Source of the DNA: Bacillota bacterium
GTDB lineage: Bacteria > Bacillota_A > Clostridia > Lachnospirales > Lachnospiraceae
Length of the DNA stretch: 9,110 nt
Reading direction: 5' to 3'
Assembly (NCBI GenBank): GCA_023443925.1
Contig: JAEZSL010000046.1
Span: forward strand, 1 to 9,110
Shown here in pieces: positions 2,412 through 5,150 of the stretch. Made by a program: the position numbers and the translations under genes. Positions within the stretch are counted from its first letter, which is position 1. Each line of letters begins with the position of its first letter. Under the pieces are notes generated by a model, which worked only from the letters and a program-made list of their open reading frames with translations, had not been told where the DNA came from and made no database searches.

Positions 2412-3233
2412 ATGGATTACACAAAAACATTACCGGAACATAAAGAAAAATGGGTGGGAGAAAATGAGTTGTTTCTGGAAGTATACCAGAGTGAAATATC
2501 CGCTGAAGAAAGCAGAAAGCCGCCTCTGTTGTTTTTACATGGAGCATATACCGGTAGCTGGATGTGGAGTAAATATATACCCCATTTTGTAAACAAAGGT
2601 TATCAATGTTATGTCATGAATCTGAGAAGCCACTACAAAAGCAGGGTAATGGATCTGACCCGGGTTACCTTTGAGGATTATCTTAATGACATTCTGGAAG
2701 TAATAGGGGAATGCGGTGAACCTCCGGTTTTGATCGGCTTTAGCATGGGAGGAATCCTGGCACAAAAGATTGCCGAGTCAGCACATTTATCCGGACTGGT
2801 GCTGATTGATTCCTGTGTCTGCAAAGAAGTAAATGAAATCGTACCGTACAAAGATGCTGCCGGTATTGTCCGCGGGAATGTGGTGCCGGCTCCGGAACGT
2901 TTGGAACAGTCCAGTATAGATGAGTCTTATGACGATATCTTATTCCAGAGAAAATATCTTTCTATGGAATCTGACAAAGTACTTGCTGACTGCTCGATTC
3001 CTTTTGGAGCTTCAAACGGAGTCAGCATAGATAACAGCCGGATTAACGGTCCCTGTCTGGTTCTTCGTGCAGTAAATGTAGAAGAGGATGAAAGTCGTGG
3101 AAGAGCGGAAGCCGCTTATTTTCATGGTGAATTTACAGGATTTTCGAAAACTACCCATACCGGTCTGCTCATCGGGCAAAGTTATCAGGAAGTTGTAAAA
3201 CGTATACTGCAATGGCTGGAGCATTTGGAATAA
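2412..3233 (+). CDS. Alpha/beta hydrolase
   Basis: A 273-residue, probably cytoplasmic hydrolase of the alpha/beta fold; no signal peptide is visible. The oxyanion motif HG (residues 43-44 in LLFLHGAYTGSW) follows the first core strand. The nucleophile elbow is GFSMGG with Ser111 (residues 109-114). The catalytic histidine is probably His249 (KTTHTGLLIG). The acid is less clear: GPCLVLRAVNVEEDES at about 213-228 sits after the expected strand and offers E224, E225 or D226. The cap region is about 140-200. The length is typical of esterases, lactonases and C-C bond hydrolases in this superfamily. The substrate is unknown. The preceding MarR regulator and shared operator suggest induction by a small molecule, perhaps one the enzyme degrades; this is inference. 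Confidence 0.9.
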   Translation: MDYTKTLPEHKEKWVGENELFLEVYQSEISAEESRKPPLLFLHGAYTGSWMWSKYIPHFVNKGYQCYVMNLRSHYKSRVMDLTRVTFEDYLNDILEVIGECGEPPVLIGFSMGGILAQKIAESAHLSGLVLIDSCVCKEVNEIVPYKDAAGIVRGNVVPAPERLEQSSIDESYDDILFQRKYLSMESDKVLADCSIPFGASNGVSIDNSRINGPCLVLRAVNVEEDESRGRAEAAYFHGEFTGFSKTTHTGLLIGQSYQEVVKRILQWLEHLE

Positions 3234-3400
3234 GATTTGGAAAATTTGATATAAAGCTGACATTTCAGCAGTGATTAGATGAGAAATAATAGAATTAGTT
3301 GATTAGTGCAGTTAGGGATCTGGCTGATATCTATAAGAATCGTGATAAACAATATTTTAGCCGGAAGTGGAAAGTTATGGAGGAACTGGTAAATTCAACC
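3234..3400. other. Spacer between the hydrolase and the left recombination site
   Basis: No gene is supported here. A short hairpin GCTGA-CATT-TCAGC lies at 3256-3269. Read on the minus strand it is followed by TTTATAT, so it could weakly terminate transcripts coming leftward from the invertible segment. It has no T-run on the plus strand, so it is not a convincing hydrolase terminator. Confidence 0.4.
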
Positions 3401-3438
3401 ATAAAATACAACATTATCGTAAATATGTTGCATTTAAA
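3401..3438 (+). repeat. Left inverted recombination site (IR-L)
   Basis: The site consists of arm ATAAAATACAACAT (3401-3414), spacer TATCGTAAAT (3415-3424) and arm ATGTTGCATTTAAA (3425-3438). The arms are inverted copies around the spacer, as in core sites of tyrosine recombinases. The 21 bases at 3415-3435 match 4204-4224 exactly as reverse complement. Extending the match to 32 bases (3404-3435 against 4204-4235) adds only three mismatches. Confidence 0.9.
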
Positions 3439-3447
3439 GTTGCAATC

Positions 3448-3476
3448 ATTCTATACTATCGCCGTTGAAATGTCAA
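3448..3476 (-). promoter_or_regulatory. Outward-facing promoter inside the invertible segment
   Basis: On the minus strand, TTGACA (3476-3471), a 17-bp spacer and TAGAAT (3453-3448) give a near-consensus sigma-A promoter. Transcription would start near 3441, at the inner edge of IR-L. In the present orientation it runs left towards the 3' end of the hydrolase as antisense. In the inverted state it would lie at about 4163-4191 and read into the HD-GYP gene with a leader of about 145 bases. Confidence 0.7.
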
Positions 3477-3506
3477 TATAACAATTATTATGTGGGATTA
3501 GGGATA

Positions 3507-4067
3507 TTATAGCTGTACGATGGAGTATAATTCATCTTTCTGATCCTGATTTATACCGATATACCGTAGGGTAATGCTGGGGGAACTGTGATTAAAGGTA
3601 TCCATGATTAATCCGATATTATACTTGGATATTTTATAAGTCCAGTAACCCCAGGTTTTTCTTAAACTATGGGTTCCAAAATTCTCAATACCCAGTACAA
3701 GGGAAGCTTCCTTAAGGACTTTATAAACCTGAATCCTTCCCAGGTACCCCCCTTTCTGGCTTTGAAAAAGATAACCGTCAAGGTCAAGATTCTGACTCCT
3801 GGCATAATTGATAAGGCACCTTCGCAAGGTATCATTCAACTTAATTTTCTTTTCTTTTGCCGTCTTCTTTTCATTGATTATAAGATACTCTCTGAATTTC
3901 CATTTTTCAATAAAAATATCACTTGCTTTTATTGGTATAATATCACTGATTCTTAAACCGGTGTTAATACCGAACTTAAATATCAGTGCATATTTCGGTT
4001 CATTGCCGTTTAAGTACTGATAAAGCTGCTTAATCTTTGCTTTATCTCTGATCGGTTCTACGGTCAT
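3507..4067 (-). CDS. Single-domain tyrosine recombinase (probable DNA invertase)
   Basis: A 186-residue site-specific recombinase containing essentially only the catalytic domain of the phage-integrase family. Candidate active-site residues are all present in order: Arg39 (TGLRISD), a beta-hairpin lysine near 67-68 (NEKKT), His133 and Arg136 (GTHSLRKTWG), His160 (FNHSS) and nucleophile Tyr169 (LRYIGI). There is no separate N-terminal core-binding domain. The size matches FimB/FimE-type inversion recombinases rather than full phage integrases of 300-400 residues. The start is the ATG at 4067 with AGGAGGG (4083-4077) 9 bases upstream. The gene lies wholly between two inverted recombination sites, so it probably flips its own DNA. 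An arm-like sequence next to its ribosome binding site may allow autoregulation. Family call secure; inversion role inferred from context. Confidence 0.92.
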   Translation of the reverse strand: MTVEPIRDKAKIKQLYQYLNGNEPKYALIFKFGINTGLRISDIIPIKASDIFIEKWKFREYLIINEKKTAKEKKIKLNDTLRRCLINYARSQNLDLDGYLFQSQKGGYLGRIQVYKVLKEASLVLGIENFGTHSLRKTWGYWTYKISKYNIGLIMDTFNHSSPSITLRYIGINQDQKDELYSIVQL

Positions 4068-4076
4068 ATTTTCTAT

Positions 4077-4110
4077 CCCTCCTAATGCAACATTTTATTA
4101 TTATATTATA
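4077..4110 (-). promoter_or_regulatory. Start region of the recombinase: -10 box, arm-like site and RBS
   Basis: On the minus strand, TATAAT (4110-4105) has no good -35 hexamer at the usual distance. About a dozen bases further on is ATGTTGCATTA (4093-4083), which matches the recombination-site arm ATGTTGCATTT at 10 of 11 bases, and it runs into the ribosome binding site AGGAGGG (4083-4077). Recombinase bound here could affect its own expression. Confidence 0.5.
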
Positions 4111-4167
4111 CAGAAAAGATATTAGAAAATATACATAAAAATCTGCAATCATTTTGAAGCTGATTAA

Positions 4168-4194
4168 TAAAACCCTTAAATTATAAGGGATTTA
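4168..4194. repeat. AT-rich hairpin inside the invertible segment
   Basis: CCCTTA-AATTA-TAAGGG (4173-4189) is a perfect 6-bp stem, extended by four more pairs after one A-A mismatch. It lies just inside IR-R, upstream of the recombinase gene. No T-run follows on either strand, so a protein or host-factor site is as likely as a terminator. A TATAAT on the minus strand (4185-4180) overlaps its loop. Confidence 0.5.
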
Positions 4195-4200
4195 ATAAAA

Positions 4201-4238
4201 ATAAAATGCAACATATTTACGATATTGTTTCATTTAAA
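4201..4238 (-). repeat. Right inverted recombination site (IR-R)
   Basis: On the plus strand this reads arm ATAAAATGCAACAT (4201-4214), spacer ATTTACGATA (4215-4224) and arm TTGTTTCATTTAAA (4225-4238). The spacer is the exact reverse complement of the IR-L spacer. The inner arm matches the consensus AAATGCAACAT, while the outer arm (AAATGAAACAA read inward) is the most diverged of the four. Both outer flanks (ATAAAA, TTTAAA) are the same in both sites on the plus strand, so only the spacer tells the sites apart in direction. Confidence 0.9.
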
Positions 4239-4343
4239 TGTAATTTTATAAGCTGATAACCTGTATTCTTCCGCTTTCATTGCTGTTAGAGAACCTGTCA
4301 GGATGCCGTATGAAAGGGAAGTTAACAGAAAGGAGTTGAAAAT
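4239..4343 (+). promoter_or_regulatory. Leader of the HD-GYP gene with a long hairpin
   Basis: A long-range stem pairs CTTCC (4268-4272) with GGAAG (4317-4321) and CTTTCAT (4274-4280) with ATGAAAG (4310-4316), 12 pairs with one bulged G. Beyond a 3x3 internal loop, CTGT (4261-4264) pairs with ACAG (4325-4328). The stem ends directly before the Shine-Dalgarno AAAGGAG (4329-4335), which is 8 bases from the ATG. It does not match a c-di-GMP riboswitch that I recognise. A weak promoter, TTTACG (4216-4221) / TGTAAT (4239-4244), overlaps IR-R and could give basal expression. Confidence 0.55.
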
Positions 4344-5150
4344 ATGTCTCAAATTTTCTTAAAGAAAAATATTTATGACAAAAATGGGGTGTTACTTTTA
4401 GCAAAAGGCCAGAGGACCACAGAAGCGGTTCTGAAAAAGCTTAGAACTCGTGTCAGCTTTGAAGCCCAGACACCGTCCAACTCTGACACAAAACAGAAGG
4501 AATCAATAATTCAAAAGGCATGGGAACTCGGAGAAAAGATGAATATCCGGGATGTCCGTATTCTGGAAACTGCCAACCGGGTACTGAGTACCATCATATT
4601 TGATTCTAAGTCGAAACCCTGGTGGATTGTAGTGAATGCTATGACCAATTATGTGGATTGGATGTATACCCATTCCCTGGATGTAGCCATGATTTCACTG
4701 ATGATCGGAATTGAACTAAATTACAGTGAAGAAGAACTGTGGAATCTGGGCTTGGGGGCTTTCCTGCATGACGCGGGCAAACTATTAATTCCAAAATTAA
4801 TTATAGAGAAGCCCGGCCCCCTGGATGACATGGAGATGACTTATATGAGGCAGCACTGTGAGCTGGGCTTTAGTTCCCTTGCGCCGTTTCATCTCCCCAA
4901 GGACCTGACCGATATTGTTTTACAGCATCATGAGCGCATGGATGGCAGCGGTTATCCCTTTGGCCTTATAGGGGAAGAAATATCACGGAATGCCAGAATT
5001 GTTATGGTAGCGGATACCATAGATGCAATTACTTCCGGACGGCCTTATATGGAGCCAAAGAGCATGGAAGCCGCCATTCAAATTCTGGGGTATGAAAAGA
5101 ACAGATATCCTCGGGAATTAATCACTTTATTGGAAAGAATGCTGGAATAA
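4344..5150 (+). CDS. HD-GYP domain protein, probable c-di-GMP phosphodiesterase
   Basis: A 268-residue, probably cytoplasmic enzyme expected to hydrolyse the second messenger cyclic di-GMP. Residues 1-40 resemble the short N-terminal segment common in Firmicutes HD-GYP proteins (YDKNGVLLLAKGQ). The HD-GYP domain spans about 95-268 and keeps its signatures: His110 (YTHSLDVA), His142-Asp143 with Lys146 and Pro150 (LHDAGKLLIP), His171 (RQHCELGF), HHERMDGSGYP at 195-205, and Asp224 in VADTIDAIT followed by RPY (233-235). The glutamate expected ahead of the first histidine in trinuclear-metal relatives is not evident, so a two-metal site is likely. There is no receiver or membrane domain, so control may lie mostly at expression. 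The start follows AAAGGAG by 8 bases. The gene abuts the right inversion site and ends before a strong terminator, so it is probably monocistronic. Confidence 0.93.
   Translation: MSQIFLKKNIYDKNGVLLLAKGQRTTEAVLKKLRTRVSFEAQTPSNSDTKQKESIIQKAWELGEKMNIRDVRILETANRVLSTIIFDSKSKPWWIVVNAMTNYVDWMYTHSLDVAMISLMIGIELNYSEEELWNLGLGAFLHDAGKLLIPKLIIEKPGPLDDMEMTYMRQHCELGFSSLAPFHLPKDLTDIVLQHHERMDGSGYPFGLIGEEISRNARIVMVADTIDAITSGRPYMEPKSMEAAIQILGYEKNRYPRELITLLERMLE

Follow-up and report, generated by a model that had tools for sequence, protein, structure and literature searches.

A recombinase gene between two inverted sites

The window analysed here is a stretch of 9,110 nucleotides from a Bacillota bacterium of the family Lachnospiraceae (contig JAEZSL010000046.1); within it two inverted sites enclose the gene of a short tyrosine recombinase and an outward-facing promoter, next to a gene for an HD-GYP protein, a predicted phosphodiesterase of cyclic diguanylate (c-di-GMP). 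This segment is very probably an invertible promoter switch with its recombinase gene inside. The basis of this reading is the anatomy of the segment, the retention in relatives of outward promoters and of paired sites whose spacers match, and natural inversions in two of these relatives; from the sequence we infer that the segment flips here, that the recombinase acts on these sites, that transcription of the target is ON or OFF by orientation, and that c-di-GMP is affected in this organism. The features are listed below, with 5' and 3' sites named relative to the recombinase gene.

3256-3269, minus strand: weak terminator-like hairpin before the neighbouring hydrolase gene
3404-3435, no strand: left inverted recombination site (3' site), 28-bp core 3406-3433; outer half-site AAATACAACAT, spacer TATCGTAAAT, inner half-site ATGTTGCATTT
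3448-3476, minus strand: sigma-A-type promoter TTGACA-N17-TAGAAT within the segment, facing outward; distance to the site core 14 bp
3507-4067, minus strand: tyrosine recombinase gene, 186 aa, catalytic domain only (PF00589)
4085-4092, no strand: additional copy of a site arm, ATGCAACA, between the ribosome-binding site of the recombinase gene and its candidate promoter
4100-4128, minus strand: weak candidate promoter of the recombinase gene, TTTCTA-N17-TATAAT, 9/12
4173-4189, minus strand: terminator-like hairpin, 5' end of cassette
4204-4235, no strand: right inverted recombination site (5' site), 28-bp core 4206-4233
4236-4343, plus strand: HD-GYP leader; best promoter-like match 6/12 against a shuffle average of 7.7
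4344-5150, plus strand: HD-GYP gene, 268 aa, predicted c-di-GMP phosphodiesterase and proposed target; motifs HDAGK and HHERMDGSGYP

The arms of the two sites (32 nt, 91% complementary, 768 nt between them) form the longest inverted repeat of the window. With a distance limit of 1.5 kb, the longest perfect inverted match is 21 bp (3415-3435 with 4204-4224), above all of 200 dinucleotide shuffles of the window (maximum 17, mean 11.9). The spacers at 3415-3424 and 4215-4224 are exact reverse complements of each other; spacer and inner half-sites are perfect between the two sites, and the outer half-sites differ (AAATACAACAT and AAATGAAACAA). The arm copy at 4085-4092 is a possible autoregulatory half-site. 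The segment has the arrangement of an inverton, i.e. inverted repeats around a promoter upstream of a gene.

The outward promoter, read from 3476 to 3448 on the minus strand, has 11 of 12 consensus matches and is the best of five promoter-like sites (at least 9/12) in 3200-4500, a count that is not above chance (5.8 expected). Within the stretch from the recombinase stop codon to the site an 11/12 match is reached by 1 of 200 base shuffles (p 0.005), and the nearest HD-GYP relatives carry a promoter of sigma-A type in the same place. Flipping in silico moves the promoter to 4163-4191, facing the HD-GYP gene 152 bp ahead of its ATG, which is preceded by a ribosome-binding site. The HD-GYP leader shows no promoter-like match above shuffle background. 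A riboswitch in this leader was set aside, given that an Rfam scan of the window gave no match and that the fold of the leader is not significant (z -1.4; 21 of 200 shuffles fold equally well). Because the outward promoter points away from the HD-GYP gene and the leader lacks a promoter-like match above background, the sequenced state is read as OFF. A sequence-only reading of this DNA had proposed the paired sites with reverse-complement spacers and a 21-bp perfect match, the minus-strand promoter that faces the HD-GYP gene at 4163-4191 after a flip, the recombinase carried within its own switch and the OFF orientation as sequenced, and each of these is borne out by the present analysis.

The proposed target protein matches PF13487 (HD_5) at 1.4e-27, its motif residues are conserved across 17 sequences, and both the HD_5 profile and the HD...HHExxDGxGYP motifs place it in the HD-GYP phosphodiesterase family. 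The recombinase matches PF00589 at 5.7e-19, with 69 bits against a gathering score of 27.1. Its residues R39, K68, H133, R136, H160 and Y169 are invariant in a 27-row alignment and presumably act as the R-K-H-R-H-Y catalytic set of tyrosine recombinases. The AlphaFold model of the enzyme has a confidence score (pLDDT) of 80, with residues 159-171 below 50, and its top Foldseek matches are XerA (E 1.9e-6) and lambda integrase (E 6.5e-6); a search of solved structures by sequence gave no match at E 0.001. Profile, catalytic residues and fold all assign the enzyme to the tyrosine recombinase / phage integrase family. Membership of the FimB/FimE DNA invertases is not supported, with scores of 25.9 and 18.8 bits with the family profiles (NCBIfam PRK09871 and PRK09870), far under the cut-offs of 222 and 221; the comparison with FimB and FimE that had been drawn earlier therefore stands for size and mode of action and falls for family membership.

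In the proposed mechanism the recombinase, made from its own weak promoter, would bind the two inverted sites and cross over in the identical spacers, so that the ~0.8-kb segment would flip at a low rate. In the OFF state as sequenced the strong 3'-end promoter would be directed away from the HD-GYP gene; in the ON state after a flip the promoter at 4163-4191 would transcribe it, and the recombinase gene would then lie upstream and codirectional, such that its transcripts could add to HD-GYP expression. HD-GYP expression would lower c-di-GMP and favour motility. The hairpin at 3256-3269 could stop the OFF-state outward transcript ahead of the hydrolase gene, and that at 4173-4189 could shield the cassette from external read-through.

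A cassette family, its partner genes and its promoters

Sequence comparison places the window cassette in a family that is widespread and keeps to a narrow range of partner genes, a result that goes beyond what the earlier reading had claimed. The protein collection holds 2255 relatives of the recombinase at E 0.001 (the best 120 of these 2255 are 69-96% identical), and a genome scan yielded 67 loci, to which whole-genome searches added further ones; the deduplicated set, window included, comprises 87 complete or partial recombinase frames, of which 72 are full length. Carriers were few among whole genomes: the family of G001 has 2 (of 397), the order of G002 has 4 (of 392) and the class of G404 has 15 (of 391). 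All 1939 matching records of the plasmid collection and all 150 of the phage collection have less than 60% identity. IMG/VR gave 13 matches, two of them close (L126 and L127), both with an HD-GYP gene divergent from the recombinase; these two contigs, listed as viral, are perhaps misassigned bacterial DNA, or a mobile carrier.

Among the 72 full-length loci, inverted-repeat detection found 60 with paired sites that share one pattern. The median distance of the site is 138 bp (range 28-244) upstream of the start codon and 99 bp (range 51-299) downstream of the stop. Nine of the 72 have no paired repeat (L003, L026, L043, L058, L060, L062, L063, L066 and L074, L043 having only 110 bp downstream), and three are omitted from the 60, L022 for its runs of N and L108 and L110 as cut by contig ends. 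This detection favours matching spacers, which in that set are identical in 45 of 60 loci and within one mismatch in all 60. The search was repeated with the arms alone, blind to the spacer, at a threshold of 13/16; sites then stand on both sides in 60 of the 72 full-length loci, which need not be the same 60. In this arms-alone set the central 8 bp are identical within the locus in 44 of 60 cases and differ by at most one mismatch in 58, as against 1.1% and 5.7% across different loci. Spacers alike within a locus and unlike from one locus to the next are characteristic of site-specific recombination dependent on spacer homology, a dependence established for tyrosine recombinases. The repeat-detected set holds 44 different spacer cores.

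Seven recurring clusters take in 51 of the 58 genes that lie on the 5' side and diverge from the recombinase. On the 3' side 44 of 64 genes are without a match in the set; the remaining 20 do cluster, 5 of them in the same families as the 5' genes, and the other 15 are common to related loci. The recurring partner families by Pfam are HD-GYP, GGDEF-EAL, methyl-accepting chemotaxis protein (MCP), CheY, CheA, CheW and FapA. Among the 60 site-bearing loci, 58 have enough flank to be informative and 56 of these have a motility or c-di-GMP partner, on the 5' side in 53 and on the 3' side in three (L042, L052 and L111). L027 adjoins an EamA transporter gene 859 bp off. Beside L117 lies a transposase-like gene (3-944, IS110-like as named from the protein sequence, no profile search), and its sister locus L118 has a GGDEF-HD-GYP gene. 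Target types were assigned by Pfam for representatives and otherwise by BLAST clustering with them, by the HD-GYP profile or by reading the protein (L100, L118); in L018, L041 and L050 another called frame separates the cassette from its target, at a distance of ~700-1170 bp. A recombinase tree (68 sequences, 57 labelled; LG+G4 without a mixture model, 16 open forks, a long-branch warning) needs 23 changes of target type, compared to 33.7 on average in shuffles and a minimum of 5. Target type therefore clusters, yet switches of partner have been frequent; a part of them may be artefactual, arising from neighbour naming inside one chemotaxis operon or from weak forks. The class lists behind the tree and the promoter and partner counts were compiled by hand, and related species are not independent.

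Outward promoter matches are concentrated at the end from which the proposed switch would drive its target. An outward sigma-A-type match of at least 10/12 to TTGACA/TATAAT is found at the 3' end in 30 of 60 loci, compared to 5 on the inward strand, 3 at the 5' end outward and 17 at the 5' end along the direction of the recombinase gene. This level is reached in 6.9% of shuffles of the 3' stretch, the shuffling here and for the target leaders preserving base composition only. TGTCGAA, which also resembles a Spo0A box, occurs in 18 of the 60 3' stretches. A second motif, AGGA-N17-GAAT, is present in 14 of the 60 loci versus none in three control stretches, and dinucleotide shuffling yields 0.1 loci on average and 2 at most. 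The cassette motif matches the pattern published for SigH promoters of an acetogen, AGGA, 17-18 nt, GAAT (PMC12456013). The two promoter types follow the target: sigma-A matches of at least 11/12 are found in 11 of 21 c-di-GMP hydrolase loci vs 2 of 29 chemotaxis loci (Fisher p 0.0006), and the sigma-H type in 11 of 29 chemotaxis loci vs 1 of 21 hydrolase loci (Fisher p 0.008). After removal of near-duplicates, and with no further correction for kinship, these values are 0.0008 and 0.005. Neither the strong sigma-A type nor the sigma-H type occurs in the FapA loci (0 of 6). The target leaders (n=39) are at background, with a promoter score of 8.15 vs 8.20 in shuffles. A SigD-type promoter was set aside, with three weak matches in the 60 cassettes and none in the 39 leaders.

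Six loci outside the set used in making the rules served as held-out cases: L159, L161, L163 and L164 have paired sites, and the distant L167 and L168 do not. The partners of the four are CheW-CheA (L159, from the protein), CheY (L161), MCP (L163) and FapA (L164), the last three by Pfam; among these four paired-site loci a clear promoter match is found only in L163 (sigma-H motif) and L164 (sigma-A, 11/12).

Several single loci are of separate interest. One genome (G1090) has four cassettes with four spacers (L021, L023, L025 and L030), partnered with CheA, FapA, MCP and CheY with MCP. Another (G407) has three tandem cassette copies with identical surroundings (L007, 3182-7558), at least two of which adjoin an MCP-type gene; recombination among them could exchange or remove receptor genes. 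In L042 (5945-8061) inversion would swap the start of the HD-GYP gene. L009 and L065 have recombinase frames broken by stops or frameshifts, with sites and HD-GYP gene kept, and are possibly switches locked by decay. The distant relatives L060, L062 and L063 (51-52% identity) in Clostridium ragsdalei and C. ljungdahlii, without paired sites, adjoin a radical SAM gene (by Pfam for L060, by cluster for L062 and L063).

Natural inversions and alternative explanations

L171 (G527) and L017 (Thermoanaerobacterium butyriciformans) come from one family; their cassettes are 99.1% identical over 908 bp on the same strand and their flanks are reversed, one with 96.8% identity along 3832 bp, the other with 94% along 120 bp and 92% along 267 bp; the alignment overlaps at the breakpoints coincide with the two 28-bp sites, and L171 has FapA downstream of the cassette 3' end. 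In G470, of the Desulfosporosinus family, two contigs carry an identical cassette whose 5' end is joined to an HD-GYP gene in one and to an oxidoreductase gene in the other; both contigs end inside the 3' spacer, the outer half-sites differ here too, and no complete site beyond these two was found in G470 at up to 3 mismatches. L109, a relative of G470 from a genome of the same family as Desulfosporosinus metallidurans, has both G470 flanks on opposite sides of a single cassette on one unbroken contig. On the simplest reading the sequenced G470 culture contained a single locus in both orientations; a pair of paralogues that have lost flanks could, strictly taken, also account for the two contigs. 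Inspection of related genomes for the reversed segment, a check that the sequence-only reading had called for, thus had a favourable outcome, with inversions in two relatives (L171/L017, and G470 with L109). L164 (FapA, promoter 11/12) is in the ON orientation, and L061, whose recombinase is cut by a contig end, has an MCP-cluster frame downstream and a sigma-H-type motif before its site.

A number of observations weigh against the switch reading or its generality. By the model 53 of 58 partners are on the OFF side and only three on the 3' side, which suggests a bias towards OFF or selection in culture, or else a factor missing from the model. L052 (HD-GYP) is in the ON orientation with only a 9/12 match facing its HD-GYP gene. 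L042 has its 5' site 28 bp from the recombinase ATG, and its called HD-GYP frame begins at the 3' site, an arrangement unlike that of the other loci. L003 and L026 have the recombinase and lack paired sites. Neither a sigma-A match of at least 10 nor a sigma-H motif is found in 17 of 60 cassettes; the sigma-H motif was spotted in these same loci before it was counted, and in the held-out set it is present in 1 of 4. In Clostridioides difficile the more active pdcB promoter reportedly lies outside the switch (PMC9286219).

It is unlikely, though it is the most probable of the alternatives, that the switch has decayed such that sites and gene persist and the segment no longer flips in this organism. 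The divergence of the outer half-sites, the OFF state of most relatives and the broken recombinase frames of L009 and L065 are in its favour; however, the window frame is intact with all invariant residues present, its spacer and inner half-sites are perfect, and differing outer half-sites are found also in G470, where both orientations occur. Slightly less probable still is a minimal mobile element, in which the recombinase and inverted ends would be insertion sequence-like or integrative and the promoter effects incidental. Occurrence of the family at many unrelated loci, the 23 target-type changes on the recombinase tree and the three tandem copies of L007 speak for such an element; against it are spacers that match at both ends and differ from locus to locus, the inversion observed at a fixed locus, partners drawn nearly all from a single functional group and lying mostly on the same side, and outward promoter matches concentrated at one end. 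That a working switch chiefly controls the other neighbour, the hydrolase gene, by antisense transcription is the least probable, for although the sequenced promoter faces the 3' end of that gene, a terminator-like hairpin precedes it and 44 of 64 3'-side genes are unmatched in the set vs 51 of 58 5'-side genes in seven clusters.

Elsewhere in the window the palindrome AGTTTGATGTCAAACT occupies the whole spacer between TTGACA and TATAAT in the promoter of the MarR gene itself (1653-1681) and returns behind that gene at 2125-2142; the two palindromes, the second lying upstream of the hydrolase gene, are likely a MarR operator pair.

Comparison with known systems

FimB and FimE are, like the window enzyme, small tyrosine recombinases (~200 aa), and they invert a promoter segment as is proposed for that enzyme; their genes sit outside the fim switch, and Hin is a serine recombinase. 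The fim switch is 314 bp, and the seven switches of C. difficile R20291, most of them acted upon by RecV, are 154-230 bp, too short for a recombinase gene (PMC5903667). The window segment encloses a recombinase gene and was set apart from this RecV-dependent short-switch class. Among the closest known systems is that of PdcB of C. difficile, a GGDEF-EAL phosphodiesterase reported in 2022 to be switched by an invertible promoter segment; as in the window, this segment is upstream of a c-di-GMP phosphodiesterase gene and its published reference orientation is OFF, whereas the window target is of the HD-GYP type and the recombinase lies inside the segment (PMC9286219).

Sekulovic et al. (2018) used paired reads to find signatures of inversion in Clostridia, which were commonest close to genes for signalling and chemotaxis; the genes next to them include one for an HD-type phosphodiesterase (Desulfitobacterium dehalogenans), one for an MCP (Anaerotignum propionicum) and chemotaxis genes (C. 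thermocellum) (PMC5903667). These three cases are likely members of the cassette family; the sections covered describe no shared embedded recombinase, site consensus, promoters or common family (PMC5903667). A description of the self-contained cassette family was not found in the literature searched, in which subscription journals were largely uncovered and one may have been missed. What appears to be new is that a recombinase, spacer-matched sites and a promoter suited to the target recur together as a single cassette.

With moderate confidence it is proposed that one self-inverting cassette family has been repeatedly installed across Clostridia before various genes of a single decision circuit (c-di-GMP breakdown, chemotaxis receptors and kinases, FapA), with spacers of each locus's own that would allow independent flipping and a promoter matched to the target, sigma-A for c-di-GMP hydrolases and transition-phase sigma-H for chemotaxis. 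Such a cassette would be a portable bet-hedging module making the motile/sessile choice heritable and stochastic; its reuse before many motility genes of environmental clostridia would make DNA-inversion bet-hedging of this decision testable across the class with existing reads, and it would offer a compact genetic switch with spacer-based insulation, cf. the four cassettes of G1090.

A recombinase gene within its own invertible segment is known from the Hin flagellar switch and from a fimbrial segment of Providencia stuartii, the putative Providencia segment being similar in size to the window's at 844 bp (PMC5903667). Phase variation is known mostly for surface structures (PMC5903667), and such structures are the targets of both Hin and the Providencia segment, whereas the proposed window target is a signalling protein, so that the flipped gene would set a global signal rather than a surface structure.

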